Source of the DNA: Actinomycetes bacterium
GTDB taxonomy: Bacteria; Actinomycetota; Acidimicrobiia; Acidimicrobiales; JAJYPT01
DNA length: 32,054 nucleotides
Reading direction: 5' to 3'
NCBI GenBank assembly: GCA_021795135.1
Contig: JAJYPT010000003.1
Coordinates: 1 to 32,054, forward strand
Both the position numbers and the translations under genes were made by a program. The notes under the pieces are model-generated. The model worked only from the letters and a program-made list of their open reading frames with translations. It was not told the DNA's origin and ran no database searches. This document shows, one piece after another, positions 1,252 to 32,054 of the stretch. Every line of letters begins with the position of its first letter. The stretch's first letter is position 1.

Positions 1252-2586
1252 GTGAATTCTAATAAAGGTGTCTTTACCCCTGAACAAGCAGAGGGTCTTC
1301 CTGGTCCTAAATGGTTGAAAACAGCAAGGCTTGCTGCAGCCCAACGTTTTTCTAAAGCCCAATTACCTTCTGAAGCGGAAGAAGTATGGCGCTATAGTAG
1401 AATCGATGAATTAGATCTTGATAAGTTTCATCCTTTTCAAGTTAATGTCTCTTCACAAGCAGCTATACCAGATCAATTGAATTCCCTACTGAATTCGTTT
1501 AGTCAAAATTCAGGTTTTTTGCTATTTCATAATGGGCAATTGGTAAAAAAAAATCTAAGTCAAATAGCCCAAGATAAACAAGTAAAAATAGGTTCGGTTC
1601 AAGAAACTAGAGATGGAATTTTTGATTCAGTTCCTTTGATTCAAGACGCCTTTGCAGATCTTTCAATAGCATTCTTGTTAGATGCAGCAGTTATAGAAAT
1701 ACCTACAGGGGTAAGTCTGGAAGATCCTATAGTAATTTTGCATCTTGTAGATGAGCCTAATGTTGCTGTTTTCCCAAGAACTGTAATAAGAGCTGGACAA
1801 GGCTCTAGTGTTAGGGTCATAGATCATTTAACATCAACCAATGTAGAAGCTTTAGTTTGTTCGGTTTCTGAACTTGATGTAGATGAGGCTGCAAATCTTA
1901 CCTATCTATTCAATCAAGATCTTGGTCCCAAAGTATGGCAGTTGGGGTATCAATCTTCTCAAGTAGGTAAAGATGCTTCTTTTGAATCCTTTACTACCTT
2001 TTTAGGTGGAGATTATGCTCGCATGCGTACCGATTCAAGATTGGTTGGTCAAGGTGGTTCAGTTAAACTTTTAGCTGCTTATTATGGAGATGGTTCTCAA
2101 GTTCATGATTTTAGAACTCTTCAAGAACATAGTGCTCCTAAAACCACAAGCGAGCTTTTATTTAAAGGTGCAGTTCAAGGCAAAGCTCGTTCTGTCTATT
2201 CTGGTCTTATTAAAGTAGATAATGGAGCAAGCGGTACTAATGCTTTTCAAACTAATCGTAATCTAGTTCTATCAGAGGGCGCTCATGCCTATTCGGTTCC
2301 CAACTTAGAAATAGATGAGAACGAAGTAAGTTGTAGTCATGCTTCGGCAGTGGGGCCTATTGATAAAGATCATCTTTATTACTTGGAAAGTCGTGGGATT
2401 CCTACTGAAGTTGCCGAAAGACTAATTGTGCTTGGGTTTTTCGAAGATATTTTATCTAGAAATGCTTCATCACAACTCCAAGATTGGTTGAGAGAGTCGA
2501 TAGCGAAAAAACTCAATGCTGGATTTAAAATTATTGCTGATTTAGAAAATAAACCTGAAGGTTTAAAAGTAGGAAGTGAGATTTGA
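1252..2586 (+). CDS. sufD: Fe-S cluster assembly protein SufD (GTG start)
   Basis: SufBD family sequence: VYSGLIKVDNGASGTNAFQTNRNLVLSEGAHAYSVPNLEIDENEVSCSHASAVGPIDKDHLYYLESRGI. Confidence 0.93.
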   Translation: MNSNKGVFTPEQAEGLPGPKWLKTARLAAAQRFSKAQLPSEAEEVWRYSRIDELDLDKFHPFQVNVSSQAAIPDQLNSLLNSFSQNSGFLLFHNGQLVKKNLSQIAQDKQVKIGSVQETRDGIFDSVPLIQDAFADLSIAFLLDAAVIEIPTGVSLEDPIVILHLVDEPNVAVFPRTVIRAGQGSSVRVIDHLTSTNVEALVCSVSELDVDEAANLTYLFNQDLGPKVWQLGYQSSQVGKDASFESFTTFLGGDYARMRTDSRLVGQGGSVKLLAAYYGDGSQVHDFRTLQEHSAPKTTSELLFKGAVQGKARSVYSGLIKVDNGASGTNAFQTNRNLVLSEGAHAYSVPNLEIDENEVSCSHASAVGPIDKDHLYYLESRGIPTEVAERLIVLGFFEDILSRNASSQLQDWLRESIAKKLNAGFKIIADLENKPEGLKVGSEI

Positions 2587-2906
2587 TGTCAGAGAGCATA
2601 AGACTTTGTTCTGTCTCGGATATAAAACCAGATACAGCTCGTCGTTTTGATGTTGGTCCTCACAGGATTGCTTTAGTGCGTATAGGTGAGAATGAGTTTT
2701 TTGCTATTGGAGATAAATGTAGTCATGCTGATTATTCTTTATCTGAAGGAGAAGTTTATGCCGATCAATATGAAATTGAGTGTTGGAAACATGGCAGTAC
2801 CTTTTCACTAAAAACAGGAGAACCTACAGTTTTACCTGCTACAAAACCAGTTCCTACATATGAGGTAAAGCTAAATGGAGACAATATTATGGTGGAAATA
2901 TCATGA
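2583..2906 (+). CDS. Rieske [2Fe-2S] ferredoxin-like protein of the SUF operon
   Basis: 107 aa with CSH...CWKH (CxH/CxxH Rieske ligands). Overlaps both sufD and sufC by 4 nt. Confidence 0.9.
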   Translation: MMSESIRLCSVSDIKPDTARRFDVGPHRIALVRIGENEFFAIGDKCSHADYSLSEGEVYADQYEIECWKHGSTFSLKTGEPTVLPATKPVPTYEVKLNGDNIMVEIS

Positions 2907-3661
2907 CATCTTCAACATTTAAAGTTAGTGGACTTCGAGCTGGAATTTTAGGTAAAGAAATTGTCAAAGGAATTGACCTTGAAATACATTCTGGTCAAGT
3001 CCATGCCATTATGGGTCCCAATGGATCTGGTAAAAGTACTCTTTCCCATGTCTTGATGGGAAGACCAGGATATGAAGTTATTTCTGGTAGTGCAACTATA
3101 GATGGCATAGAACTATTGGGAATGCCAATTTGGCAAAGAGCACAAGCGGGTCTTTTTATTGCTCTCCAATATCCAATAGAAGTGCCAGGAGTGAGTTTAG
3201 AAAACGCGCTAGGGGAAGCTTTTGCAGCCAGAGGACAAGATCGTTCCATGGTGTATGAAAAAGTTTTAGCCGAGGCTAAAAGACTTGATTTTGATGAAAA
3301 GTTTTTATCTCGTTCACTAAATGTAGATCTTTCGGGTGGAGAAAAAAAGAGGAATGAAACTCTTCAACTGGGAGTACTAGAGCCTAAATTTGCAATTTTG
3401 GATGAGATCGATTCAGGTCTAGATATTGATGCTTTGAGAGATGTTTCTAGAAGGATCGAAGCTGCAACTACTGAATTTTCTTTAGGTGTTTTAGCTATAA
3501 CTCACTATAGTCGACTTCTTAAAGAATTGAAACCTGATGTAATTCATGTTATGGCTGGTGGAAAAATAATAGATACTGGTGGTCCTGAGCTAGCTGATAA
3601 GTTGGAAAAGACAGGATATAGCGCTTATGGCTTAAAAGATGAGGAACCTATTGTTATCTAG
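2903..3661 (+). CDS. sufC: Fe-S cluster assembly ATPase SufC (operon copy)
   Basis: Walker A GPNGSGKST, signature LSGGEKKRNE, ILDEIDSGLDIDALR. Confidence 0.95.
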   Translation: MTSSTFKVSGLRAGILGKEIVKGIDLEIHSGQVHAIMGPNGSGKSTLSHVLMGRPGYEVISGSATIDGIELLGMPIWQRAQAGLFIALQYPIEVPGVSLENALGEAFAARGQDRSMVYEKVLAEAKRLDFDEKFLSRSLNVDLSGGEKKRNETLQLGVLEPKFAILDEIDSGLDIDALRDVSRRIEAATTEFSLGVLAITHYSRLLKELKPDVIHVMAGGKIIDTGGPELADKLEKTGYSAYGLKDEEPIVI

Positions 3662-3730
3662 GCGATATTTTTGGTGTCGTGAAATTCTAAACTTTGGTAA
3701 ATAGATAATAAAGTAACAAGAAAGGCAAAG

Positions 3731-4087
3731 ATGACTATTGAAGAACAAGATGGAGATAGTCCTCTTTGGGGGTCTTGGGAAAAAGTAGTTTCTTTTGATC
3801 CCACTAAGGCAACAGTTCGTCCTGTTATCTCCAGTCAAGGATCTAAGGCATTTATAGTAGGTCTAGAGCCAGGCCAACAACTTCGAAGTCACCCAGCTCC
3901 TGCTGACTTGTATTTATTTGTTGTACAAGGCAGTGTAACTTTTACGATAGCAGACCAAGTCAATGCTGTAAATCTTGGAGATTGTGTACTGATGAAAAAA
4001 GGAGTTCCTCATGCTATTTATAATAGCCAAGAAGCTCGGGCTGCTGTTTTGGGAGTTACCTTGCCTCTATCAACTGTTTCACGATAA
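3731..4087 (+). CDS. Small cupin-domain protein
   Basis: 118 aa with a cupin pattern (GLEPGQQLRSHPAPADLYLFVVQGSVTFTI...GDCVLMKKGVPHAIYN). Confidence 0.75.
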   Translation: MTIEEQDGDSPLWGSWEKVVSFDPTKATVRPVISSQGSKAFIVGLEPGQQLRSHPAPADLYLFVVQGSVTFTIADQVNAVNLGDCVLMKKGVPHAIYNSQEARAAVLGVTLPLSTVSR

Positions 4088-4350
4088 ATAGACTTAGCAA
4101 TTTGTTGCTATGGCTCAGTCGATTTTTATTTCTTTTGAAATTCATTGACTGAATTGTTATTTTTTACCTGTATTTGAGATTATGTACTTTGCTAGTAGTC
4201 CAATTTTTATAAAATAAAACTAATACGGGTTCCTCTAGTTTTAGACAATGCTTCATAGCTTGTCATGCAATTCCTCAGATTGCAGTCTCTAAGGACAGTT
4301 TCATTGATCCTTACAGTTTCGTCTATTCTAAATGCACTTCAACCTAAATA

Positions 4351-4380
4351 TTGGAGTTATTGTTATACTCCAAACATTTT
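4351..4380 (+). terminator. Possible weak terminator or stem-loop
   Basis: TTGGAGT (4351-4357) / ACTCCAA (4367-4373), 7-bp arms, followed by a short T run (ACATTTTTG). Confidence 0.3.
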
Positions 4381-4524
4381 TGCCTTACTTTTTCAAAGTA
4401 TTGGATAGCTTCCATGGTTTGTCCTTAAAGGCTTTACTTTCTAAGTAATAAAATTTTCTGAAAAAAGAAAGTATTTTAATTTTACTTTTTATATAAGAAT
4501 CTCCTCAAAAATTCTTTGACCAAC

Positions 4525-4652
4525 AAATTTCTAAAATTTATTCTTTTAGTTTCCATTACTTTCAAAAATTAGGAATCCCTTCATGGAGGGCTATTTATTT
4601 TAAGTTTAGTTATTTGTATTTGAAGGTGTTCAAAAATAAATTTTAGAAATTT
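4525..4652. repeat. 18-bp perfect inverted repeat separated by 92 nt
   Basis: AAATTTCTAAAATTTATT (4525-4542) and AATAAATTTTAGAAATTT (4635-4652) are exact reverse complements. Confidence 0.8.
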
Positions 4653-4709
4653 TTTTGATCTGCTATAGACATAATACCTATCGGTATGTAAGATAAGTGC
4701 TCAAATAGA

Positions 4710-4721
4710 GAAAGCGCTTAC
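4710..4721. promoter_or_regulatory. Putative LacI-family operator at the lacI start codon
   Basis: GAAAGCGCTTAC with central palindrome AAGCGCTT (4712-4719), typical of LacI/GalR-family operator cores, 4 nt before the ATG at 4724. Confidence 0.6.
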
Positions 4722-4723
4722 GT

Positions 4724-5770
4724 ATGCCTAGTGAATTCGAAAAACCGACAATTTATGAAGTAGCTGAACGAGCCGGGGTTTCCATTGCTTCGGTATCTAG
4801 AGTATTGCAGAACAAGCCTGGAGTCTCTGAAGCTACTCGAAAAATGATTACTTCAGTAATGCAAGAGTTAGGATATGTTCCAAGTAATGCAGCTCGAGGT
4901 TTGGCGGGTTGTAGAGCTGGAATTATAGGATTGATATTTCCAGATTTAGATGATCCTTCTATGGAATCTGGACATGAGACTCTGCTTTATTTTGATGAAA
5001 TTATTAGAGGAGCACAAAGAGCGGCTCGACAAGAAGGTATTGCAGTGTTGATAGCTGCGACCCATTCTGCTTCTGGTAGGGAACTGGCTTTATCAATCGC
5101 AAGTAAAGTTGATGGATTGGTGGTAATGGCCCGTAGTGTCCCAGAGGTAGATATGCGTTCTTTGGCTACTAGGATTCCAACAGTGTTATTAGCAGCTGAT
5201 AGGCATATTTCGGGAGTTGACTATTTGATAGCAGACAATGAAGGCGGTGCAGCCGCTGTCACTAGACATCTTGTTGAATATCATAAATATCCAACTGTGA
5301 AGTTTATAGGGGGCCCTTCGAATTCACCAGATTCTAGAGCTCGTTTTCGTGGGTATTGTAAAGCATTGGCTTTAGCCAATCTTGAAGTTCCAAAAAGCCC
5401 CTGGATGGCTGGAGATTTTACAGAAGCTAGTGGTCGTAGGATTGCTAAAGTAATTCTTTCAAAAGGGTCTCTTCCTAGATCTGTTGTCGTTGGAAATGAC
5501 CAAATGGCATTTGGGATGATGAAAGTACTCATATCTGAAGGAATCAAAGTACCCCAAGAGGTAGCAATTACTGGTTTCGATGATCTTCCAGTAGCTCGCT
5601 ATTTGCAGCCGGGTTTGACTACTGTTCGCCAGCCAATGAGACAGCTGGGTGCTGAATCTATTCGATTGCTTCTTGTGCGTTTAGGTGGGGCTACCTCTCC
5701 TCAATCAGTTACGTTGCCAACTGAACTTACGTTACGACAAAGTTGTGGATGTGTAAACGATGACTACTAA
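4724..5770 (+). CDS. LacI-family transcriptional regulator
   Basis: N-terminal HTH TIYEVAERAGVSIASVSRVLQNKPGVSEATRKMI, periplasmic-binding-like sensor domain, C-terminal LRQSCG. Confidence 0.95.
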   Translation: MPSEFEKPTIYEVAERAGVSIASVSRVLQNKPGVSEATRKMITSVMQELGYVPSNAARGLAGCRAGIIGLIFPDLDDPSMESGHETLLYFDEIIRGAQRAARQEGIAVLIAATHSASGRELALSIASKVDGLVVMARSVPEVDMRSLATRIPTVLLAADRHISGVDYLIADNEGGAAAVTRHLVEYHKYPTVKFIGGPSNSPDSRARFRGYCKALALANLEVPKSPWMAGDFTEASGRRIAKVILSKGSLPRSVVVGNDQMAFGMMKVLISEGIKVPQEVAITGFDDLPVARYLQPGLTTVRQPMRQLGAESIRLLLVRLGGATSPQSVTLPTELTLRQSCGCVNDDY

Positions 5771-7601
5771 AAAACCAATTTCACCACGAGATGATTGGCG
5801 AAAACGAATTAGTCTTCGTTCTGATGAACAAGCTACTTTAAATACCAAGATAAATTCAACATTACAAGCTCCTGCAGGGTTAGTAGCTACTCCTGGGCAA
5901 GCTCAAATTACTTTGAGATGGCTTCCAGTAGAAGGAGCAATTGGTTATATAATTTTTCGCTCTTTTGATGATGATGGATTTGTTGCTATCAATCATGGTG
6001 GTAGCGATGTCTTGGCTGTGCCTGAATTGTTATATGCAGATACCGATATCGTATCTGGAACTTTTTATTCTTATCGAGTAGCAGCGACTGCATCACTTGA
6101 TATAGCACCTGGACCTATGTCTAAGACGGTGACTTGTCAGGCAGTATCAACCATTGCCAGACCCCTTATTGGTCTAGTTGATAGTGCTGGTTCAGATGGT
6201 GATTTGGATCGAGTTTGGCATATGATAGGTTCTGAGCGTTTATCCCAACTAGATGAAGACTTTGATGTTTTTGGAAATCCTATTGGTAAAGAGTTTTCTC
6301 AAGCGCTTTCTATTGCGAGCAGCGAACTTGGAGCAACTATGGTTCGAGCTCATGCGATTTATCATGATGACTTGGAAGTATTTTCATGGAAACAAGGTAA
6401 TCCCAAATATAATTTTACCAAAGTCGATGCAATATTTGACAAGATTATAGAATTGGGTTTGCGTCCAGTTGTTGAGTTATCATTTATGCCTTATGATTTA
6501 GCAACTGACCCTAATGCTACTGTTTTTGACTACCGAGGTATAATTTCGCCTCCTCGCGATTGGGCTAAATGGGCTGAGCTTAATTTTGAACTAGGCAAAC
6601 ATCTAGTTGAGCGTTATGGCATCGATGAAGTTTCTCAATGGGCTTTTGAGGTATGGAACGAACCTAATCTTGATGTCTTTTGGACAGGCACTCAAAAAGA
6701 CTATTTTCAATTATATGACCTTGCAGCAATGGCAATTAAAGAAGTTGACAGTCGTTTGATTGTTGGCGGCCCTGCTACTGCAGCTGGGGAGTGGTTATAT
6801 GCTTTTATTGCTCATGTTGCAGATAATGCAATACCTTTGGATTTTTTATCTACCCACACTTATGGCAATACCCCTTTAGATGTTAGGCCTATTTTAGCTA
6901 AATACCACCTAGAGAAGACAAAGATATGGTGGACTGAATGGGGAGTAGGATCTACCCATTTCGGACCTATCCATGATACTGCTTTAGGAGCCCCTTTTAT
7001 TTTAAGAGGTTTTAAAGCTGTACAAGGTCGAGTTGATGCAGTTGCCTATTGGGTTATTAGTGATCATTTTGAAGAACTTGGACGACCTCCTCGGTTGTTT
7101 CATAACGGTTTTGGTCTTCTTTCGGTGGGCAATTTACGAAAACCTCGTTTTTGGGCTGTACGCCTAGCGCAAGAGCTTGGAGATCACCTTCTGCCAGTTG
7201 GCATAGAAGGTGATGGTGCCGAATCCCTAGTAGAGATATGGGCAACAAAATCTTTCGATGGCCAAGTTGATGTTTTGTTATGGAACAGTACTCTCAATGC
7301 ATCCAAGTTTGAGGGAGATGCACAACTTGAGAGAACTGTATCTTTAGATGTCGTTGGGCTAGAGCCAGGGATCTATAAAGTATTTCTTGCTCGAGTAGAT
7401 AGTAATCATTCTAATATCATCAGGCATTGTCCGCCTGAGGTGAAATGGCCCAATGAAAAATTGTGGAAGCAAATTGCTACCCAAGACCAGCTGTGGGAGA
7501 CCACGTTGGATGATTTAACTATAACGACAAAAACAAAAGTTAACTATGAAGTGATTTTACCAATGCCGGCAGTGGTCCGGATTAGGTTTAAACCATCTTA
7601 G
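5760..7601 (+). CDS. Glycoside hydrolase, probably GH39-like (beta-xylosidase-type), with N-terminal fibronectin III-like domain
   Basis: Candidate acid/base in FEVWNEPNLDVFW and nucleophile in IWWTEWG. N-terminal APAGLVATPGQAQITLRWLPVEGAIGYIIFRS resembles FN3. No obvious signal peptide. Overlaps the lacI stop by 11 nt. Confidence 0.75.
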   Translation: MTTKKPISPRDDWRKRISLRSDEQATLNTKINSTLQAPAGLVATPGQAQITLRWLPVEGAIGYIIFRSFDDDGFVAINHGGSDVLAVPELLYADTDIVSGTFYSYRVAATASLDIAPGPMSKTVTCQAVSTIARPLIGLVDSAGSDGDLDRVWHMIGSERLSQLDEDFDVFGNPIGKEFSQALSIASSELGATMVRAHAIYHDDLEVFSWKQGNPKYNFTKVDAIFDKIIELGLRPVVELSFMPYDLATDPNATVFDYRGIISPPRDWAKWAELNFELGKHLVERYGIDEVSQWAFEVWNEPNLDVFWTGTQKDYFQLYDLAAMAIKEVDSRLIVGGPATAAGEWLYAFIAHVADNAIPLDFLSTHTYGNTPLDVRPILAKYHLEKTKIWWTEWGVGSTHFGPIHDTALGAPFILRGFKAVQGRVDAVAYWVISDHFEELGRPPRLFHNGFGLLSVGNLRKPRFWAVRLAQELGDHLLPVGIEGDGAESLVEIWATKSFDGQVDVLLWNSTLNASKFEGDAQLERTVSLDVVGLEPGIYKVFLARVDSNHSNIIRHCPPEVKWPNEKLWKQIATQDQLWETTLDDLTITTKTKVNYEVILPMPAVVRIRFKPS

Positions 7602-7627
7602 GATAACAGTCCAAGGGGGAGATAAAA

Positions 7628-9343
7628 ATGAAGGATTCACCAGGTTTTGCTAAGCAGATAGTGGCTAGAAATAAATTTAAAAACACTAGCCGCAAGAGCG
7701 GAACTAAAAGGATTGCTACGTTGGTAGCAGTAGCTTTTACAGTAGCTGCATGTGGTAGTACTGCTACAAGTACAGTTAAAAGTACTGGAGGAGGTTCTAT
7801 GACGATAGGAGTTGATAATGGATCTCCAACTTTACAGAAAAACTTTAATCCGTTCTCGTCAAATATGCGAATCGGAACTACCTATATGTACGAACCCTTG
7901 GAGTATGTAAATACTCTAAATGGAAAGTTTACTCCTTTTTTAGCCACAGGCCATCATTTCGTAAATAATACCACTTTGCAGTTTGACATTCGTTCTAATA
8001 TGAAGTGGAGCGATGGAAAACCAATCACTGCTTCAGATGTAGTTTTTACATTCAATTTACTTCATAAATATCCAGCACTTGATGTAACAGGAATATGGAA
8101 TCATTTAAATTCTGTAACTTCATCAGGAAATGTTGTTACTTTTCACCTCAATAGTCCCGATGTTCCGTTTGCCCAAATTATTGCTCAAACTCTTATAGTC
8201 CCTCAACATATTTGGGCGAGTATAAAAAATCCGGTTACTTTTACAAACAATAACCCTGTCGTATCAGGACCTTATGTATTGTCTTCGTTTAATCCGAATC
8301 AATATATATTGAAGAAAAATCCTAATTGTTGGCAAGCTTCTCATGTAGCTGTTCCTAAATTGATATTTCCCGCAATGAGTGGAGGCCAAACTTCTCAACT
8401 ACAGTTGTCTAGGAATGCTTATAGCTGGGCAACTTTATTTGTTCCCAACATAAAACAATCGTGGGTAGATAAAGCTCCAAAGTATAATAAATATTGGTTT
8501 CCACCAGGGGGTTCAATTTCTCTTTTTCTTAATCTAGCTAAAGCACCTTTCAATAATCTTACTTTTCGCCAGGCTTTATCCGATGGATTGAATCGTCAGA
8601 CTATAGCTACTAAAGCTGAAAATGGATATGTAAAACCAGCTAGCCAAACTGGGCTTTTACTCCCAGGTCTCAAAAAATGGCTCAACCCTTCATATCCAAA
8701 TAAAGGAGTGCCTACCTATAATGTAGCTAAAGCAATGAAGTTACTTTCATCTATTGGTTATCATAAAAACGGCAATACCCTTCTAAGTCCTAATGGATCC
8801 CCGGTCAAATTTTCAATAATTGTTCCGAATGGGTTTTCGGATTGGATTAGTGGAGCCCAAACAGTTGGCCATGAACTTGGTCGCTTGGGAATTTCAGTGA
8901 CAGTATCTACTCCTCAATTCGCAGCTTACCAAAGCCAATTACAAACCGGCCAATTTCAAGCAGCTTTTGGTTCCATTGGTGGAAATGGTAACCCATATTT
9001 GGATTTCCATAATCTACTAGCTAGTAGCCTAACTGCTCCTATTGGTCAAAGTACAGGAGTGGGAACAAACTATGAGAGATGGAAGAGCACAAAAACTGAT
9101 GCTTTGTTGAATCAATTGCTAGTTACGACTAATCCTACCTTGCAGAAAAAAGCTGTATATGGACTAGAAAAAATTATGTATACTCAATTGCCAGTTTTGA
9201 CCCTATTTTATGGAGCAACATGGGGAGAGTATAGCACTAAGAGCTATACCGGATGGCCAAGTGCTGCTAATCCATATGCTCCACCAGCGCCATATGGTGA
9301 TCCTCCTATTATGATTATGACTCATCTTCACAAGAGGGCTTGA
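7628..9343 (+). CDS. ABC transporter substrate-binding lipoprotein, family 5 (Opp/Dpp type)
   Basis: Lipobox-like VAVAFTVAACGS; MKWSDGKPITASDVVFTFNLL and FRQALSDGLNRQTIA are SBP family 5 features. Confidence 0.9.
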   Translation: MKDSPGFAKQIVARNKFKNTSRKSGTKRIATLVAVAFTVAACGSTATSTVKSTGGGSMTIGVDNGSPTLQKNFNPFSSNMRIGTTYMYEPLEYVNTLNGKFTPFLATGHHFVNNTTLQFDIRSNMKWSDGKPITASDVVFTFNLLHKYPALDVTGIWNHLNSVTSSGNVVTFHLNSPDVPFAQIIAQTLIVPQHIWASIKNPVTFTNNNPVVSGPYVLSSFNPNQYILKKNPNCWQASHVAVPKLIFPAMSGGQTSQLQLSRNAYSWATLFVPNIKQSWVDKAPKYNKYWFPPGGSISLFLNLAKAPFNNLTFRQALSDGLNRQTIATKAENGYVKPASQTGLLLPGLKKWLNPSYPNKGVPTYNVAKAMKLLSSIGYHKNGNTLLSPNGSPVKFSIIVPNGFSDWISGAQTVGHELGRLGISVTVSTPQFAAYQSQLQTGQFQAAFGSIGGNGNPYLDFHNLLASSLTAPIGQSTGVGTNYERWKSTKTDALLNQLLVTTNPTLQKKAVYGLEKIMYTQLPVLTLFYGATWGEYSTKSYTGWPSAANPYAPPAPYGDPPIMIMTHLHKRA

Positions 9344-9377
9344 GATGAATGTACTCAGCTTCAAAGACAAAGAATAA

Positions 9378-10361
9378 GTGATGCGATACGCCTTACATAA
9401 AATTCCGGTATTTCTCCTCACCCTATGGGGCGCTATAACTTTGAATTTTTTACTCCCAAGGTTGATGCCCGGTACTCCATCAGAAGCGGCTTTGGCCAAA
9501 TTTGCTGGGATGGGACCAGTATCTCCATCACAATTACGGGCTATTCAAGCAACTTTGGGAGTCCCTCATGGAAGTTTGATATCACAATATGGGCAATATC
9601 TAAACGATATTGCCCATGGGAGATTTGGAATTTCTTACACATATTTTCCCGAACCAGTAAGTAAACTTATAATTCAAGCCTTACCATGGACTTTGGCTTT
9701 AGTAGGTACGGTAACCATACTGGCTTTTATTATTGGGACCTTATTTGGAGTATTGGCTGCTTGGCGACGAAATAAGCTTTTTGATACTTTTGCAACAGTA
9801 AGTTGTACTTTTAGTTCGGCGTTTCCTTATTTTTGGACAGGACTATTGTTTTTATTTGTTTTTGGATTCGTCTTGGGCTGGTTCCCAATTAAAGGTGGAT
9901 ATGGGGCTTCTATGAGTCCTAATATGAGTTTTAGCTTCTTTGGTAATGCAATATATCATAGCTTATTGCCTGCTGGAACACTTTTGGTTAGTGGCATGGG
10001 TGGATGGTTACTTGGCATGAGAAATAATATGATTCCCACTTTGGGGGAAGATTATGTAATCTTTGCTGAAGCAAATGGACTGCCTAGTCGTAAGATTGCT
10101 CTTCGTTATGCAGCTCGTAATGCTATTTTACCTAATCTAACCGGGTTTGGAATGGCTCTAGGTTTCGTGGTTAGTGGTTCTATTTTGACCGAAGTTGTTT
10201 TCTCATATCCTGGAGTCGGTTTCCTTCTCTATAACGCTGTAATCAATAATGACTACCCACTTATGCAAGCCTTATTTTTGATTATAACCATTACCGTATT
10301 GGTGGCTAATTTTTTAGTAGATTTACTTTACGGATGGCTTGACCCGCGAGTTAGACGATGA
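9378..10361 (+). CDS. ABC transporter permease (DppB/OppB type)
   Basis: Multi-TM; LPRLMPGTPSEAAL, DYVIFAEANGLPSRKIALRYAARNAILPNLTGFG; C-terminal LLYGWLDPRVR. Confidence 0.9.
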   Translation: MMRYALHKIPVFLLTLWGAITLNFLLPRLMPGTPSEAALAKFAGMGPVSPSQLRAIQATLGVPHGSLISQYGQYLNDIAHGRFGISYTYFPEPVSKLIIQALPWTLALVGTVTILAFIIGTLFGVLAAWRRNKLFDTFATVSCTFSSAFPYFWTGLLFLFVFGFVLGWFPIKGGYGASMSPNMSFSFFGNAIYHSLLPAGTLLVSGMGGWLLGMRNNMIPTLGEDYVIFAEANGLPSRKIALRYAARNAILPNLTGFGMALGFVVSGSILTEVVFSYPGVGFLLYNAVINNDYPLMQALFLIITITVLVANFLVDLLYGWLDPRVRR

Positions 10362-11299
10362 ATTTTCCTTTGTTAGATAATAATATTAAAAATTTGTTGA
10401 CAAAAGAAGAACTAGCGAAGAAGCTTTCTTCGCGCTCTTCTAACTCTGGAACTTTTATAATACGTGCTTTTTTAACCTTATGGGAAAATCGCAAGGCTCG
10501 AGTGGGAATAGCTATACTTGGTATTTTTATTCTAACTGCAATATTGGCACCAGTGCTTAGCCCTTATTCTCCAACTTCAACAAATTTTTCACGTTCAGCA
10601 GCACCAAGCTGGGCGCATCCCTTAGGAACCACCGGTCAAGGCCAAGATGCTCTTTCTCAATTGATATGGGGCACTCGGGTTTCTGTGTTTGTTGGTTTTG
10701 CCGCCGGTGCGCTTGCAACGATTGTAGCTGTAACCATTGGTCTTGTTGCTGGCTTTGTGGGAGGAGTTATTGATACCATTTTGTCTTTTGTTGTCAATCT
10801 TGCTCTGGTAGTTCCTTCTTTGCCATTGATGATAGTGATTGCTACTTATATACCGGGACGTGGAATTGGGGTAATCATTTTTGTCATATTTGTAACTGGA
10901 TGGGCGTGGGGAGCTAGAGTCCTTCGAAGCCAAACTACTAGTTTGAGGCAAAGAGATTTTGTTGTAGCTGCCCAATTTTCTGGAGAGCGACTTCCTCGTA
11001 TTGTCTTGCGAGAAATATTACCTAACATGACATCTCTTATTGCAGCCAATTTTTTTGGAGCAGCTACAGCAGCCGTGCTTGCTGAGGCAGGTTTAGAGTT
11101 TTTAGGGTTAGGCAATCCCAGCATAGTTAGTTGGGGGACAATGCTTTATTGGGCTCAAAACAACAGTGCTCTACTTACTGGAGAATGGGCTCTTGTTTTT
11201 GCTCCAGGCCTTTGTATTGCCTTATTGGCTGCCTCATTATCATTAATCAACTTTGGGGTAGATGCTCTTGCCAACCCCCGCCTACGGGAACATAAATAA
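10358..11299 (+). CDS. ABC transporter permease (DppC/OppC type)
   Basis: HPLGTTGQGQDALSQLIWGTRVSVFVG; EAGLEFLGLGNPSIVSWGTML; 4-nt overlap with the upstream permease. Confidence 0.9.
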   Translation: MNFPLLDNNIKNLLTKEELAKKLSSRSSNSGTFIIRAFLTLWENRKARVGIAILGIFILTAILAPVLSPYSPTSTNFSRSAAPSWAHPLGTTGQGQDALSQLIWGTRVSVFVGFAAGALATIVAVTIGLVAGFVGGVIDTILSFVVNLALVVPSLPLMIVIATYIPGRGIGVIIFVIFVTGWAWGARVLRSQTTSLRQRDFVVAAQFSGERLPRIVLREILPNMTSLIAANFFGAATAAVLAEAGLEFLGLGNPSIVSWGTMLYWAQNNSALLTGEWALVFAPGLCIALLAASLSLINFGVDALANPRLREHK

Positions 11300-12279
11300 T
11301 GTCCCTATTAGAAGCGGTGAGGATAAATGTCGTGTATGAACCTTTCAGAGGAGCTGAAATACATTCGGTCAGAGATGTTTCACTACGAATAGAACATGGG
11401 GAGATAGTTGGCTTAGTAGGAGAATCTGGATGTGGCAAATCAACTCTTGCGTATGCTCTTACCAAAATGCTACATTCACCAGCTCGATTTGTCTCAGGAA
11501 AAATTTTTTTCAAAGGTGAAGATATTACTGACTTAAGTGGAGAGAATCTACGTCTTCATCGGCGTAAAAGTTTTGCACTTGTTCTACAAAGTGGGATGAA
11601 TGCTCTAAATCCTGTGATCAGTATTGAAGATCATTTTGTAGATGTCATGCGAGCGTATGAAAAGGTCAAATTTAAAGATATTCGTTCTAAAGCAGAACTT
11701 CTTTTGAAAAGTGTGCACTTACCACAATATACCCTTGAACGTTATCCCCATGAATTATCTGGAGGTATGCGTCAACGAGTAGCAATAGCACTTGCTCTTG
11801 CTTTGGATCCACAATTGGTAATTTTTGATGAGCCAACTACTGCATTAGACGTCCTAGCTCAAGAAGCAGTCATAGCTACCATTAGAGAACTACAACATAG
11901 TTTTGGCTTTTCTGCTTTATTGGTAAGTCATGATTTGGGGTTGGTACTGGATGCAACTGATCGTGTAATGGTAATGTATGCAGGCCGGGTAGTTGAAAAC
12001 CAAAATTCTTCGACGATGTATAAACACGCCCAACATCCCTATACAAAAGCTTTGCTTGATTGTTACGCTGATCCAAGAGCTGAAGAAGTAAAGCTAGGAG
12101 GTATTCCGGGCTCGCCTCCAGATCTTTCTTCTCATATAGATGGTTGTTCGTTTCAGCCCCGTTGCAATTTGGCCGAAGCACAATGTTCTTTAAATGAACC
12201 TCCCTTGTATCGTAGTGAATTTGGCCACGTAGCCTGTTTTGTGGCGAGTCAGAAAACAAAAGAAAATCTCAATGAATAA
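11299..12279 (+). CDS. Oligopeptide/oligosaccharide ABC transporter ATPase (OppD/DppD type)
   Basis: GESGCGKS Walker A, LSGGMRQRVAIA signature, C-terminal GSPPDLSSHIDGCSFQPRCNLAEAQC. Confidence 0.92.
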   Translation: MSLLEAVRINVVYEPFRGAEIHSVRDVSLRIEHGEIVGLVGESGCGKSTLAYALTKMLHSPARFVSGKIFFKGEDITDLSGENLRLHRRKSFALVLQSGMNALNPVISIEDHFVDVMRAYEKVKFKDIRSKAELLLKSVHLPQYTLERYPHELSGGMRQRVAIALALALDPQLVIFDEPTTALDVLAQEAVIATIRELQHSFGFSALLVSHDLGLVLDATDRVMVMYAGRVVENQNSSTMYKHAQHPYTKALLDCYADPRAEEVKLGGIPGSPPDLSSHIDGCSFQPRCNLAEAQCSLNEPPLYRSEFGHVACFVASQKTKENLNE

Positions 12280-17906: not shown

Positions 17907-20621
17907 CTATTGTAAAAAAGCAGGATTAACTGAGTCAGTGGCTAGGCCATATTTAGCAATTGCATCTTGTACTTCTTCTGCTTTTGCTTCATTACTATTT
18001 GCAAGGGCAAAAAGAACAGCTACCACAATGTGTTCAGCATCTATTTCAAAATAACGTCTTAGGTTTTTTCTAGTATCAGAACGTCCGAATCCATCAGTTC
18101 CAAGGGATGAGTAATTATTAGGAACCCATCTAGCTATTTGATCAGGTACTGATTTCATAAAGTCGCTTACTGCTATGACTGGTCCTTGTATAGATTCTAA
18201 AGAAGTTTTGACAAAAGGAATTTTTTGTTTAGCAGTTGGATGAAGACGATTCCAACGTTCTGTTTCTAAAGCTTGTTCTCTCAAAGCCTTATAAGAAGTC
18301 ACCGACCAAATTTCTACAGAAGTATCCCATTGCTCAGAAAGCATCTTTTGGGCCTTTACAGCTGCTTTCCAAGTTGATCCAGAAAATAATATGGCACCGT
18401 GACGATTATGAGAAGATGGGGAGGGTGCATCACTAAAGCGATACATTCCTCTAAGTATGCCTTCTTTTACCCTAGTTGCCTCTTTACCTGTTGGAAGAGC
18501 CGGCATGACATAATTTTCATTATATAAAGTTATATAGTAAAAAATATCTTCGGGATTAGGTCCATACATTCGCTTTATTCCTTCATTGACAATGATTGCT
18601 ACTTCGTATGCAAAAGCAGGATCATATGCCATAAGGTTGGGGAAAGTAGAAGCCAATACTAAAGAATGACCGTCGTCATGTTGAAGACCTTCTCCTTCAA
18701 GGGTGGTTCTTCCAGCTGTTGCTCCCAGCAAAAAACCTCTTCCTCTCGCATCTGCAAAAGCCCAAGCAAGATCTCCAACTCTTTGGAATCCAAACATTGA
18801 GTAAAAGATAAAGAAGGGAATCATTGGCTGACCCCAGGTGGCATAAGAGGTGCCAGCAGCGGTAAAGCTTGCTAAAGAGCCAGGTTCTGTAATGCCTTCT
18901 TCTAAGATTTGACCATCTTTTGCTTCTGTATATGAAAGCAAAAGATCGGCATCAACTGGGGTGTAGAGCTGACCTTGGGGAGCGTAAATCTTTATTTCTC
19001 TAAAAAGTGCATCTAAGCCAAAAGTTCTAGCTTCATCTGGAATTATCGGAACTATTCTTTTGCCCACTCCTGGATCTCTAAGTAAGTTTCGCATCAGACG
19101 TGCAAAACCCATTGTTGTAGAAACTGCTTGATTGGCAGATCCTTTTAAAAACTCTTCATAAGTAGAAGGGACTAATTCAGGAAGAGGTTTAGAACGTACT
19201 ACCCTTTTAGGTAAAGAACCACCCAAAGCAGCACGTCGTTCCATTAGGTATTCGTGAGCAGGAGACCCAGGAGGAGGACTATAATAAGGTGGTAATTCTG
19301 CATCTAGGGCTTCTACTGGAATATCTTCTTCTAAATGAAGACGATCTCTTAGGGCAAGCATTTGAGTCTTGGTCATTTTTTTAATTTGATGGGTGGCGTT
19401 TCTAGCTTCGATATCAGGCCCTAGAGTCCATCCCTTTACTGTTTTAGCTAAGATTACAGTAGGAGAACCTTCATGTTCTACTGCTGCTTTATAAGCAGCA
19501 TATAATTTACGATAGTCATGCCCTCCTCGAGGCAATGTTCTAAGCTCATCATCGCTTAGATGTTCTACTAATTTTCTCAATCTAGGATCAGGACCAAAGA
19601 AGTGTTCTCGTATATAGGCTCCACTTTCTACGGTATATTTTTGGAATTCCCCATCTAAGGTATTATTTAGCCTATTTACTAACACTCCATCAACATCTCG
19701 AGCAAGCAATTCATCCCATTTGGTGCCCCAAATAACTTTTATAACATTCCATCCAGCGCCTCTAAAAATAGCTTCTAGTTCTTGAACTATTTTCCCATTG
19801 CCCCTAACAGGGCCATCTAATCTTTGAAGGTTGCAATTGACTACGAAAATAAGGTTGTCAAGGCCTTCACGAGCAGCCAAGGAAAGAGCTCCAAGAGATT
19901 CAGGTTCGTCAGTTTCTCCATCTCCTAGAAAACACCAAACTTTGGATTTGGAGGTGTCTGCAATTTGGCGATGTAATAAATAGCGGTTAAAACGAGCTTG
20001 ATAAATAGCATTTATAGGGCCAATACCCATCGATACGGTGGGAAATTCCCAAAAATCGGGCATTAAGCGAGGATGGGGGTAAGAAGAAAGACCCTCTCCT
20101 CCTAATTCCATTCGGAAATTATCTAGCTGGGCTTCATTTAATCTACCCTCTAAATAAGCTCTTGCATAAATACCAGGAGCTGCATGGCCTTGAAAAAATA
20201 CTTGATCTCCAGCTTGACCATCATTTTTTCCTCTGAAAAAATGATTAAATCCAACTTCGTATAAAGAAGCCGAACTGGCATAAGTAGCGAGGTGACCTCC
20301 TATGCCGTCGGAACGGGCATTTGCACGAGTAACCATTACTGCTGCATTCCAGCGGATATATGCTCGTATTTTTCTTTCCATATCTTCATCTCCTGGGAAC
20401 CAAGGTTCTTGTTCAGTGGGGATGGTATTTATATAAGGAGAAGAAATAGTGCCTGGAAAGCCCACTTGGCTTTCTCTGGCACGTTCTAGGAGCTTCATCA
20501 GTAAAAAACGAGCGCGATTGCGCCCTTTGATGTCAACTATTGCATCAAAAGAATCTAACCACTCGGTTGTTTCTTGTTTGTCTATGTCTGGTATCTGATG
20601 GGAAAAACCGTCAAAAATCAC
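17907..20621 (-). CDS. aceE: Pyruvate dehydrogenase E1 component, homodimeric type
   Basis: 904 aa. [78 protein letters not shown]. Confidence 0.97.
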
Positions 20622-21293: not shown

Positions 21294-22712
21294 GTGACTA
21301 CAAGTTCAAAAACATTCGACGTAGTAATATTGGGAGGCGGTCCTGCAGGTTATGGAGCTGCTCTTTATGGAGCTTCTGCAGGATTGTCCATTGCTTTGGT
21401 AGAAGCTAGCAAAGTAGGAGGAACCTGTTTACATAAAGGATGCGTTCCTGCTAAAGAATTTTTAGAAACAGCTGCGATCTATCGAAGCGTTTCTAATGCG
21501 AAAACTTTTGGAATAGAAACATCTAAGCCAAAAATTGATTTTTCTATTAGCCAAGCCCGCAAGCAAAAAGTCGTAGACCAGCTCTGGAAGGGTTTGACTG
21601 GTCTTTTACGAAAACGTAAAGTGACTATTATCCAAGGTCGGGGATATCTCAAAAATTCTAATACTGTAGAAGTTGAAGGATATGGGCAACTGGAGGGAAA
21701 TTACATTATCCTTGCAACAGGTTCAGATGTTCGTACTTTGGATGGTTTTGAAGTAGATGGTCGTTTTGTCATGACCTCTGATGAAGTTCTATCTTTGGAG
21801 ACTCTTCCTAGCTCAGTAGCTGTTATTGGAGGAGGTGCTATTGGGTGTGAATTTGCTTCTATGATGTCAGATTTAGGTGTAAAGGTAACAATTTTGGAAG
21901 CTTTGCCTCAATTGTTGACAGGGGTAGATGCAGATGTTGCCCAAGTTCTAGATAGATCATTTAAAAAACGTGGAATTGAAGTAAAAACAGGAGTTCGCAT
22001 ACAAGGACATATCCCTGGTGCTAGTACTACTAAGATAAGTTTTTCTTCTAATGAGACAGATGGTGAAAAACTACATACTTTAGAAGTAGATACCATAATT
22101 GTTTCAGTTGGAAGAAAGCCAAATTCTGAAAAAATAGCTAGCGATCAAATAGGTCTCGAAATAGATGATCGAGGGTTTGTAGTTGTTGATAACAAAATGA
22201 GAACTAATCTAGAAAATGTGTATGCCATAGGAGATTTGGTTCCAACTGCCCAACTAGCCCATGTTGGATTTGCAGAAGCTATTGTGGCGATAAAAGAAAT
22301 TCTAAAAGAAGACCCTTTGCCAGTAAATTATTCTGCTGTGCCTTGGTGTATCTATTCTCATCCCGAAGTTGCTTTTGTTGGATTGTCTGAGGATCAAGCT
22401 CGTAATCTTGGTCATGATATTTTGGTTTCCAAACATCGTTTTGCGGGCAACAGTAGAGCACTTATAATTGGAGAATCTGAAGGTTTAGTAAAAGTAATAA
22501 GCGAAAGAAATTATGATGGTAGCGCGGGAAAGATTTTAGGGGTTCACTTAGTGGGCCCTTGGGCAACAGAACTTTTAGGACAAGGATATTTGGCTGTAAA
22601 TTGGGAAGCTACTCCTGAAGAAGTATCTAACTTTATACAGCCTCACCCTACACTTTCTGAAGCTTTTGGAGAAACAGTTATGTCACTTACCGGAAGAGGA
22701 CTACACGGATAA
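21294..22712 (+). CDS. lpdA: Dihydrolipoyl dehydrogenase (GTG start)
   Basis: GGGPAGYGAALYGA, GGTCLHKGCVPAKEFL redox-active Cys pair, YAIGDLVPTAQLAHVGFAE, HPTLSEAFGE. Confidence 0.95.
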   Translation: MTTSSKTFDVVILGGGPAGYGAALYGASAGLSIALVEASKVGGTCLHKGCVPAKEFLETAAIYRSVSNAKTFGIETSKPKIDFSISQARKQKVVDQLWKGLTGLLRKRKVTIIQGRGYLKNSNTVEVEGYGQLEGNYIILATGSDVRTLDGFEVDGRFVMTSDEVLSLETLPSSVAVIGGGAIGCEFASMMSDLGVKVTILEALPQLLTGVDADVAQVLDRSFKKRGIEVKTGVRIQGHIPGASTTKISFSSNETDGEKLHTLEVDTIIVSVGRKPNSEKIASDQIGLEIDDRGFVVVDNKMRTNLENVYAIGDLVPTAQLAHVGFAEAIVAIKEILKEDPLPVNYSAVPWCIYSHPEVAFVGLSEDQARNLGHDILVSKHRFAGNSRALIIGESEGLVKVISERNYDGSAGKILGVHLVGPWATELLGQGYLAVNWEATPEEVSNFIQPHPTLSEAFGETVMSLTGRGLHG

Positions 22713-24094
22713 TGGCTGAAGTTATAATGCCTCAATTAGGTGAAACAGTCACCGAAGGCACAATTACTAGATGGTTAAAAAAACAAGGCGACCCAATAGC
22801 AGTAGATGAGATACTTTTTGAGGTATCTACGGATAAAGTAGATTCTGAAGTCCCGTCTCCAGCAGGAGGTTTCTTGTCTAACATTTTAGTCAAAGAAGGT
22901 GAGACAGTACCAGTTGGGGCAGTCTTGGCTGTTATCTCTGATGATTTACAAGCATCAGATTCGCCTAAGAGTTCTCCTCCTGAGACTTTTGAACAAAAAT
23001 CTAGCCCAAAGGTTTTAGATTCAGCGAACTCGGTTCCAAAACAGAACGACTCTGTCTCACAACCACAACAACCTCCAGAACCTACTCAGGCATTACCATC
23101 TTCTCCTAAGGTTGAAAAATCTCCTACTAGCAATGCCAGTGCTACAGGTCGTCTTATGTCGCCCTTGGTTCGTCAATTGCTGCAAGAATATGACATAGAT
23201 CCTTCGGAAGTAACTCCAACAGGAGATGGAAATCGTATTACCCGTTCAGATGTTTTATTGTTGGCAGAATCTAAAGCTAAAGGAGGAACTTCTAGACAAA
23301 AAGATGAACCATCTATTGTCAAAGAAGTCAAAACTGTTCCAGAGACTCCTTATCAAAAAGTAGAACCAATACCAATTTCGTCTCATGATGAAATTATTCC
23401 TTTTTCTAATATGCGTCGTCGTACTGCTCAGCATATGGTCCACTCCATAGCTACTTCGGCTCACACTCTTGTAGCGATAGAAGTTGATTTTGAAAATATA
23501 GAGAAGTTACGTAGAAAAAAAGGGGCTCAATTCAAAGCTGAAGAAGGTTTTAGTCTTACCTATCTTGCTTTTATATCTTTAGCTGTTACCCAATGTTTGA
23601 GAGAATTTCCTCATTTGAATTCCTCGGTAAATGCCGATTCTTTAGTAGTGCATAAAGATATCCATCTTGGAATAGCTGTTGATTTAAATTTTGAAGGATT
23701 GATAGTTCCTGTAATACATAATGCAGATGGCAAAAGGGTTAGAGCTTTGGCTAGAGAAATAGTAGATCTAGCCTCCAGAGCTCGAAGTCGACGCTTGGGT
23801 GCAGATGATATAGCTGGGGGAACTTTTACAATTACAAACCCTGGGCCTTTTGGAACCTTTATTACTGTTCCTGTAATCAACCAACCTCAAGTAGCAATTC
23901 TTTCTACTGATGGAATTAAAAGACGTCCAGTAGTTGTACAAGGACCAGACGGAGGAGAAGCCATTGCTATCCATTCTGTTGGCATCTTGGCCTTGTCTTT
24001 TGATCATCGAGCAGTAGATGGAGCTTATGCGTCTGCCTTTTTGGCCCGTTTGAAACAAATAATTGAAACCAAAGATTGGGACCAGGAGATATAG
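22712..24094 (+). CDS. 2-oxo acid dehydrogenase E2 (lipoyl acyltransferase), single lipoyl domain
   Basis: Lipoyl site EVSTDKVDSEV, E3-binding domain SPLVRQLLQEYDIDPSEVTPTGDGNRITRSDV, catalytic LSFDHRAVDGAYAS. Confidence 0.93.
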   Translation: MAEVIMPQLGETVTEGTITRWLKKQGDPIAVDEILFEVSTDKVDSEVPSPAGGFLSNILVKEGETVPVGAVLAVISDDLQASDSPKSSPPETFEQKSSPKVLDSANSVPKQNDSVSQPQQPPEPTQALPSSPKVEKSPTSNASATGRLMSPLVRQLLQEYDIDPSEVTPTGDGNRITRSDVLLLAESKAKGGTSRQKDEPSIVKEVKTVPETPYQKVEPIPISSHDEIIPFSNMRRRTAQHMVHSIATSAHTLVAIEVDFENIEKLRRKKGAQFKAEEGFSLTYLAFISLAVTQCLREFPHLNSSVNADSLVVHKDIHLGIAVDLNFEGLIVPVIHNADGKRVRALAREIVDLASRARSRRLGADDIAGGTFTITNPGPFGTFITVPVINQPQVAILSTDGIKRRPVVVQGPDGGEAIAIHSVGILALSFDHRAVDGAYASAFLARLKQIIETKDWDQEI

Positions 24095-25756
24095 ATGAGT
24101 CGAAATCTTCAATTTAGGTGGTTGGGGAAAACTTCTTTTGCTGATGCTGAAGCTATTCAGAATTCTTTATTTAGCGCAAAAGGCAAAGACTATATGCTCT
24201 TGTTGGAACATCTACCTGTTTATACCCAAGGCATAAGAGCCTCCCAAGAAGAAGTATTAGTCAAAGATCTAGGAGCTCCAGTTGTAAAGGTAAAGCGAGG
24301 TGGAGCCACTACTTTTCATGGCTTGGGGCAATTGGTTATTTATCCAGTTGTCGATCTTGCTCCCAGGTCTCATATGTCAACTTTTTATGTAAATACTTTG
24401 GAAAATTTAATTATTGAAGTTTTGGCTGAACTAGGTATAACAAATGTGGGCAGATTAGCTCAATATCCTGGAGTTTGGGTTGATCCGAATGGTTCTAATG
24501 CTCGTAAAATTGCTGCTATAGGAACCCGTATTTCAAAGGGAAGAACTATGCATGGAGCTGCTTTGAATGTTTCAACTGATCTTTCTATGTTTGAAAACAT
24601 AGTTCCATGTGGGATATCAGACAAAGCAGTTACTTCTGTCTTGGCAGAAGGAATTACAACTTCTTTGCATGAAGTAGTGGATTTGGTTGAGAAAAAAGCT
24701 GCAGCTTTTATGGCAGAAGTCTCTCAAGATAGCGATATTGTTATTTCTCGACAAGATGTAGCTTGGAAAAACACTTCTATAGTTGGGCAAAAAAATCTTA
24801 TTCCAAAACTTGCTTCTAAACATTTGACAACTCGTTTGAACGAGGCTTTTTCTTCTAGCTCTGAACCAGTCAAGTGGATTGAAACAAAGCGTAAGCCCCC
24901 CTGGCTTAGAGCTAAGTTCAACATAGGTCAAGAATATAAAGAATTGAGATCTACTCTCAAAGGTTTTGATTTAGCAACAGTGTGCGAAGAGGCGGGTTGT
25001 CCTAATATATATGAGTGCTGGAATCAAGGAACAGCTACTTTCATGATCAATGGTACTCGCTGTACTAGAGCTTGTGCTTTTTGTTTGGTAGATACTAGAA
25101 GACCACTTGAATTAGATCATCAAGAGCCAATGCGAGTTGCCCAAGCTGTAAAGCAGATGAATCTTTCTTATGTGGTTCTTACAGCTGTTGCAAGAGATGA
25201 CTTAGAAGATGGAGGGGCAAGTGGTTTTGTCTCTAGTATTGAACACATTAGAAGACTTTGCCCGCAAGTTTCTATTGAGATTTTGATTCCTGATTTCAAA
25301 TCCAACTTAAATTCTTTAGAAAAAATATTTTCTGTTGCTCCTGAGGTTTTGAATCATAATTTAGAAACTGTTCCTAGGTTGCAAAGAGCTATTAGACCCT
25401 CAGCATCTTATGCAACTAGCCTTGCTGTGTTAGCTAGAGCAAAACAAGCAGGACTAGTTACAAAGTCAGGACTGATTTTAGGCATGGGAGAAACCGAACA
25501 AGAAATTTCTCAAAGTATTATTGACTTGGGTTCTATAGGGGTAGATATATTGACCCTCGGTCAATACCTAAGACCTAGTTCTAATCACTTGCCTATTTCG
25601 AGATGGGTTGAGCCTAAAGAATTTGAAGATTTGAAAGAATTTGCTTTGGGAGTCGGATTTTCCCATGTTGAATCCTCTCCTTTGACTCGCTCTAGCTATC
25701 ATGCCAAAGCAGCAGCACAAAATGCTAGTTCTTTAATTTCTATACCAGTCAATTGA
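24095..25756 (+). CDS. LipB-LipA fusion: octanoyltransferase plus lipoyl synthase in one ORF
   Basis: LipB: KRGGATTFHGLGQLVIYP, ARKIAAIGTRISKGRTMHGAALNV, IVPCGI. LipA: CEEAGCPNIYECW, CTRACAFC radical SAM, LTAVARDDLEDGGASGF, C-terminal TRSSYHA. One uninterrupted 553-aa frame. Confidence 0.95.
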   Translation: MSRNLQFRWLGKTSFADAEAIQNSLFSAKGKDYMLLLEHLPVYTQGIRASQEEVLVKDLGAPVVKVKRGGATTFHGLGQLVIYPVVDLAPRSHMSTFYVNTLENLIIEVLAELGITNVGRLAQYPGVWVDPNGSNARKIAAIGTRISKGRTMHGAALNVSTDLSMFENIVPCGISDKAVTSVLAEGITTSLHEVVDLVEKKAAAFMAEVSQDSDIVISRQDVAWKNTSIVGQKNLIPKLASKHLTTRLNEAFSSSSEPVKWIETKRKPPWLRAKFNIGQEYKELRSTLKGFDLATVCEEAGCPNIYECWNQGTATFMINGTRCTRACAFCLVDTRRPLELDHQEPMRVAQAVKQMNLSYVVLTAVARDDLEDGGASGFVSSIEHIRRLCPQVSIEILIPDFKSNLNSLEKIFSVAPEVLNHNLETVPRLQRAIRPSASYATSLAVLARAKQAGLVTKSGLILGMGETEQEISQSIIDLGSIGVDILTLGQYLRPSSNHLPISRWVEPKEFEDLKEFALGVGFSHVESSPLTRSSYHAKAAAQNASSLISIPVN

Positions 25757-31007: not shown

Positions 31008-32054
31008 TTATTCAAAAATTATTATTGTATCCCCATTGCTCAATGAGTCTCCTACTGAGACTAAGATTTCTTTTACAACTCCATTTTGATCAGCTAGTAC
31101 ATTATTTTCCATCTTCATAGCTTCTAATACACAGATAATTTCGCCTTGTGCAATGCTTTGGCCAACCTCTACAGCTATTTTCGTAATTACTCCTTGCATG
31201 GGGGCAATAACTGTCTTTGATGCAGAACCATGATGTTTTCGAGAAGATCTACTCAAGGGTTTAGAAGCTTGAGCAGGGATAGCTTGGGGCAATTGAGAAT
31301 TAGGAGATATCCATAATTTTACGTTGAATAACTTTCCATTTACTTCTGCTTGGATTTGTTGTTCTTGGAGGGCAAGTTGTTTGTTTGGGCTAGTTGTTTC
31401 TAAAGAAGATATATTGGAAAAATTAAGCTTTTCTTCTACCCATTTTGTTGAATAGTTATTGTCTTGAAAATCTTTATGGTCAAGGATTGCTTTGTGAGCT
31501 TCGATATTGGTTTTGATACCTTGAATTTTGATCTCAGTTAATGCTTGGAGCATCCTTTTTATAGCGATTTGTCGATTGGGGCCCCAAGAGATGAGTTTTG
31601 CCACTAAATTGTCGTAAAAACTTGGAAGGCTATCTCCGCTTTGGTACCCAGCATCTAGTCTTATGCCTAATCCGCCTGGGGTATCGAATTGAGTAATAGT
31701 TCCAGGAGTTGGGCTAAAGAGTCCTCCAGAAACATCTTCAGCATTGATTCTGCATTCAATAGAATGCATATTGGGATCGAAAGTAGCTTTTTTATCTTTT
31801 ATAGATTGTCCTGCTGCTATTTCTATTTGAAGGCGAACTAAATCCAAACCGGTGGTCATTTCTGTCACTGGATGTTCTACCTGAAGACGAGTATTCATCT
31901 CCAAAAAATAAAATTTATCTTTTTCATATAAAAATTCAATGGTTCCTAAATTTTCATATCCACAATGCTTTGCTATTTTGAGCGCAGCTTGTCCCATAGC
32001 TTGGCGTACTTTAGGACTCAATCCTGGAGCTGGGCATTCTTCTAATAATTTAGA
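31008..32054 (-). CDS. Acetyl-/propionyl-CoA carboxylase alpha subunit (biotin carboxylase C-terminal part plus BCCP), N-terminus beyond window
   Basis: EFLYEKDKFYFLEMNTRLQVEHPVTEMTTGLDLV, ECRINAED, C-terminal biotin site VLEAMKMEN. Frame stays open to the window end. Confidence 0.93.
   Translation of the reverse strand, partial: SKLLEECPAPGLSPKVRQAMGQAALKIAKHCGYENLGTIEFLYEKDKFYFLEMNTRLQVEHPVTEMTTGLDLVRLQIEIAAGQSIKDKKATFDPNMHSIECRINAEDVSGGLFSPTPGTITQFDTPGGLGIRLDAGYQSGDSLPSFYDNLVAKLISWGPNRQIAIKRMLQALTEIKIQGIKTNIEAHKAILDHKDFQDNNYSTKWVEEKLNFSNISSLETTSPNKQLALQEQQIQAEVNGKLFNVKLWISPNSQLPQAIPAQASKPLSRSSRKHHGSASKTVIAPMQGVITKIAVEVGQSIAQGEIICVLEAMKMENNVLADQNGVVKEILVSVGDSLSNGDTIIIFE

Follow-up and report, generated by a model that had tools for sequence, protein, structure and literature searches.

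A LipB-LipA fusion, predicted to combine both steps of lipoyl synthesis, is the ordinary arrangement in Acidimicrobiia

Two enzyme families act in the endogenous assembly of protein-bound lipoate. Members of the LipB family take an octanoyl group from ACP, bind it to a cysteine and pass it to the lysine of a lipoyl domain, and members of the LipA family insert sulfur by radical-SAM chemistry using an auxiliary cluster (PMC12246082, PMC9307952). The LipS1/LipS2 route commonly co-occurs with LipA in bacteria (PMC10332631). Here we describe a gene in which LipB and LipA form one protein, found in a stretch of 32,054 nucleotides that was analysed as a whole (hereafter the window). The reading that we favor, with a probability of roughly 0.88, is that of one bifunctional enzyme for endogenous lipoylation, which arose by a single fusion in an lpd-E2-lipB-lipA operon and has been retained since.

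The fusion gene, lipBA, lies on the forward strand, as do all of its parts given below, and occupies positions 24095-25756; a Shine-Dalgarno-like AGGAG (24084-24088) can be read in the sequence 6 nt 5' of its ATG. Its 553 codons are uninterrupted and cover both enzymes completely, an architecture common to 69 loci. Three Pfam families match the 553-aa protein above their gathering scores: LplA-B_cat (PF21948) at residues 19-200, LIAS_N at 262-302, and Radical_SAM at 321-474. Equivalog cut-offs of NCBIfam are exceeded by the LipB domain (about residues 1-205, 24095-24709; TIGR00214, 137 bits versus a cut-off of 84, residues 29-183) and by the LipA domain (about residues 263-548, 24881-25738; TIGR00510, 347 bits versus 310, residues 263-541), and the LipB half also passes PRK14345 (175 bits versus 155). 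The nearest solved proteins by sequence are the M. tuberculosis LipB 1w66 and LipA 5exi/5exk. Across positions 24600-25000 the other two frames contain 9 and 12 stops and the coding frame has none; thus the open frame at the join is not a product of chance. The in-frame fusion proposed in the initial annotation is therefore genuine, and a search for a stop or frameshift between the domains, which would have spoken against it, found an open frame and relatives continuous over the same join. The fusion protein is the sole LipA found in the assembly, and no other PF21948 protein encoded there scores as LipB; three further proteins of the LplA/LipB fold are present. From these family assignments we infer octanoyltransferase and lipoyl synthase activities for the fusion protein.

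Residue conservation was counted over 108 LipB sequences, 69 from fused loci and 39 from separate genes. The putative catalytic residues Lys138 (24506-24508; Lys in 69/69 fused sequences) and Cys172 of the PCG motif (24608-24610; Cys in 108/108) correspond to Lys142 and Cys176 of MtLipB and to Lys135 and Cys169 of E. coli LipB (PMC9307952), and His75 and His153 are intact as well. In the LipA half, the cysteines of the auxiliary [4Fe-4S] cluster (C297, C302, and C308, CxxxxCxxxxxC, 24983-25018) and those of the radical SAM cluster (C323, C327, and C330, CxxxCxxC, 25061-25084) are conserved in 108/108. The RSSY motif, read in the translation, is located at residues 532-535 (25688-25699); Ser533 and Ser534 occur in every complete row of the alignment, and Tyr535 in 60 of 68 fused sequences. 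The initial annotation held that all signature residues are intact, which is correct for Lys138, Cys172, the six LipA cysteines, and RSSY, but it missed a replacement in the LipB motif HGPGQ. Position 77 (TTG, 24323-24325) is Leu in the window alone, giving HGLGQ; the other 68 of the 69 fused sequences and all 39 separate LipB sequences have Pro there. No Pro codon can be reached from TTG with fewer than two base changes, so the substitution does not reflect a single-base error. The HGPGQ motif is typical for LipB and is not known to be strictly required; the window protein departs from it and nonetheless exceeds the family profiles. P77L could weaken the first step, octanoyl transfer; the remainder of the domain looks conserved, and an impaired LipB half is possible but unlikely.

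The two domains are joined by a linker of about 57 residues (206-262, 24710-24880), with features defined from an alignment of 30 fused proteins: an RQDVAW-like stretch near its start (219-224) and a predicted helix (237-253). Linker length varies between 29 and 97 aa in the 69 fused loci and is mostly 50-70. The AlphaFold model of the window protein has a mean pLDDT of 90.6 and a pTM of 0.91, with pLDDT below 50 only at residues 226-236 within the linker, and a distant member of the class gave 87.7 and 0.89. In fold comparison the target TM-score was 0.91-0.95 for MtLipA 5exk and 0.85 for MtLipB 1w66. If two domains of some 205 and 290 residues floated freely, a pTM near 0.6 would be expected by our own estimate from the pTM formula; hence AlphaFold predicts a definite packing, and a fixed arrangement of the LipB and LipA domains is plausible, a pTM value being something other than a measured interface. 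A fixed bienzyme with both active sites turned toward a common docking site, where a lipoyl domain would undergo octanoylation and sulfur insertion while bound only once, is a tentative and rather doubtful extension of this model, and channeling from LipB to LipA is hypothetical.

As stated in the initial annotation, the fusion lies directly behind lpd and the gene of a lipoyl-bearing E2. On the same strand, lpd (21294-22712; Pyr_redox_2 and Pyr_redox_dim) encodes dihydrolipoamide dehydrogenase (E3), followed by an E2 dihydrolipoamide acyltransferase (22712-24094; Biotin_lipoyl, E3_binding, and 2-oxoacid_dh) with one N-terminal lipoyl domain, and the E2 stop codon TAG abuts the ATG of the fusion. 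The divergent neighbor aceE (17907-20621, reverse strand; PDH_E1_M, 280 bits) encodes a homodimeric pyruvate dehydrogenase E1, with an RNase H-like gene between it and the lpd side, and genes for a cobalamin adenosyltransferase, a leucyl aminopeptidase, and a Sir2 protein follow 3' of the fusion. Of 39 named loci in Acidimicrobiia, 37 have lpd and 29 have E2 upstream of the fusion; aceE is the divergent neighbor in 7/39 (flanks of up to 8 kb). At five loci (L034, L036, L037, L044, and L045) lpd sits shortly 5' of the fusion, and no E2 gene was found in the interval. Elsewhere in the window, a SufB/SufD-type Fe-S assembly gene (1252-2583), unlinked at about 22 kb upstream, is a possible source of LipA clusters, and a gene for a biotin carboxylase with a biotinyl domain (31008-32021, reverse strand) is incomplete at the contig end.

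The E2 is the expected substrate of the fusion protein, the choice of carriers being our inference. A second set of lipoate assembly genes (positions 2490-11605, reverse strand) lies on another contig, C214, as binned in the draft genome. Its profile matches are LipS1 above the cut-off and a LipS2-like radical SAM protein below it, accompanied by an LplA-like ligase, two GcvH-like carriers, and an 812-aa Fe-S/CCG protein, and the set resembles the LipS1/S2 route (PMC10332631). Two reading frames there resemble, by eye only, subunits of electron-transfer flavoprotein, and such an ETF/Hdr-like neighborhood is unusual for LipS1/S2. On a further contig (C249, 1627-3957, forward strand) an HdrC-like/CCG protein is followed by a divergent LplA-like protein of 343 aa. 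Since a LipS1/S2-like set stands beside LipA here, as is commonly reported, the fused LipBA probably lipoylates the E2 of the 2-oxoacid dehydrogenase, and the LipS1/S2 set, taking C214 as binned, probably serves other carriers. Together with the three LplA/LipB-fold proteins, the LipS1/LipS2 set could partly bypass the fusion.

The fusion is far from the local oddity implied by the initial annotation: it is the standard arrangement across Acidimicrobiia. A single match spanning both domains was present in at least 139 of 198 sampled genomes of the class, a hand count in which some matches include one stop codon, read as running past the C-terminus. In addition, two-piece matches were considered as gene fissions and rejected, as all nine cases examined contain both domains in one open frame. 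At the order level, most of the 397 genomes with matches listed have one match across both domains; the source genome is the only representative of its genus and family in the compared set. At the level of open reading frames, 110 loci were sorted into 69 fused, 39 separate, and 2 with lipA only (the 69 slightly exceed the number of distinct genomes, a few having been drawn twice), and the fusion is kept in every class member examined in this way. Named fused records belong to Acidimicrobiia (Acidimicrobiales/Acidimicrobiaceae MAGs, Candidatus Microthrix), and named separate-gene records mostly to Actinomycetes, e.g., Streptomyces, Nocardia, Nonomuraea, and Dietzia. In one Candidatus Microthrix locus (UBA881, L086, about 7941-9889), the LipA half seems to be cut short mid-LipA, possibly by a frameshift.

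The phylum's other classes, sampled with about 270 genomes, yielded no stop-free spanning match among the matches listed; lipB and lipA are separate and mostly adjacent there, and the few spanning matches contain stops. Candidate fusions outside the class (G729, G651, G702, and G769, as well as L092 from Desulfuromonadales, L112, and L113) were rejected because of stops between the genes or separate genes, and an apparent occurrence in 'Acidobacteria' (L097) agrees with genome G401 in position, length, and score and is that same genome, taxonomically a member of the window's class. Among the matches listed for 118 genomes from the phylum of L092, none was spanning and stop-free, and a scan of viral contigs recovered no relative of the fusion protein. 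It had been noted beforehand that the fusion might already be described as common in its clade. It is indeed common in Acidimicrobiia; however, no paper describing a LipB-LipA fusion was found in the literature searched. Such proteins presumably carry automatic 'multifunctional fusion protein' names in UniProt/InterPro. The fusion is real and ordinary within Acidimicrobiia, and the news is modest.

Several observations bear on whether one functional protein is made. The window is a contig from a draft assembly of 257 contigs, in which an assembly or frameshift artefact might join two genes; however, many independent assemblies, including the single-contig G002, G006, and G398, show this join with linker residues that align, the coding frame stays open exactly where stops crowd the other two, and relatives at 50-58% identity run through the join without a break, so that an assembly join is ruled out and the probability of any such artefact is negligible. 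It is also very unlikely that two polypeptides are produced, the full-length protein and a LipA started inside the linker. An in-frame ATG does occur at 24710 (residue 206), and TTG codons at residues 244 and 248, but these internal starts have no convincing Shine-Dalgarno sequence (at best 3/6 bases, before the ATG), in contrast to the good AGGAG of the true start, and Met206 is not conserved, the column being Trp in 24/30 sequences. A further alternative is that this genome relies on the LipA half alone, with P77L impairing the LipB half and an LplA-like ligase encoded elsewhere in the assembly taking over attachment. The replacement is indeed found in 1 of 108 LipB sequences, the end branch of the window LipB is long (0.62 versus a median of 0.2 in the LipB tree), and the assembly offers three further PF21948 proteins. 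Nevertheless, Lys138, Cys172, His75, His153, and the remaining LipB domain are intact, the HMM score of 303 bits falls within the 187-363 spanned by fused relatives, and the half is free of frameshift or other decay in an ORF of uniform codon make-up; we regard this alternative as unlikely.

Turning from the protein to its history, a single branch of the LipA tree sets the fused sequences apart from the others, with one change and an SH-aLRT value of 73, though this tree carries a long-branch warning; support for a single origin is therefore moderate. The LipB tree requires two changes of the fused label, which together with the moderate basal support would favor several independent fusions, yet the starred branches force at most one gain of fusion in either tree. 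Moreover, the order of domains is constant and linker motifs are common to many members, so we consider repeated fusion improbable. Most separate-gene loci have lipB immediately 5' of lipA, and E2 and/or lpd frequently occur a few kb upstream in this group; the adjacent lipB-lipA genes of Actinomycetes are the obvious precursor arrangement. A single ancient fusion is the simplest and most likely history for the genomes sampled, rather than a proof of universality. It would date from the base of Acidimicrobiia or close to it, when, in an lpd-E2-lipB-lipA operon, the stop separating the last two genes was lost once, and it would have been retained thereafter.

On the mechanism of a bifunctional LipBA, the N-terminal LipB half would transfer octanoyl from ACP, via its cysteine, to the lysine of a lipoyl domain, and the C-terminal LipA half would then, by radical SAM chemistry, sacrifice its auxiliary [4Fe-4S] cluster to insert sulfur at C6 and C8. 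The most likely effect of the fusion is a 1:1 ratio of the two activities, with both active sites kept on one scaffold; a given lipoyl domain could then go through both steps with less dissociation. In lipoyl assembly a protein-bound intermediate must pass from LipB to LipA, and the class-wide fusion provides a single protein in which guided passage can be studied, useful also for structural work on both lipoyl steps together. If the bienzyme reading is true, the fusion would be a natural system for testing the hand-off in lipoic acid synthesis. The fusion also offers a simple protein marker for Acidimicrobiia, and it calls for care in pathway annotation, as gene callers that assign one function per ORF may miss LipB or LipA across the class.

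Compared with described systems, the N-terminal half shares with LipB (EC 2.3.1.181; TIGR00214, 1w66) the whole domain, the Cys/Lys dyad, and the fold, but it carries a C-terminal lipoyl synthase and, in this genome, HGLGQ instead of HGPGQ. With LipA (EC 2.8.1.8; TIGR00510, 5exk) the other half shares both cluster motifs, RSSY, and the fold; it differs in carrying an N-terminal octanoyltransferase and a linker in place of the usual free N-terminal extension. In the bifunctional lipoate--protein ligase/lipoyl synthase LplA-LipA (NF053790), LipA is likewise preceded by an attachment enzyme that shares the LipB fold, but there this enzyme is an ATP-dependent ligase, whereas that of the window is a LipB octanoyltransferase; the window protein falls outside this family, reaching 362 bits versus a cut-off of 800 and matching the LipA part only (model positions 330-605). 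Finally, the adjacent lipB-lipA genes of Actinomycetes and Gammaproteobacteria, often a few bases apart, have the same order and reactions, but they encode two polypeptides with stop codons between them, where the window encodes one.
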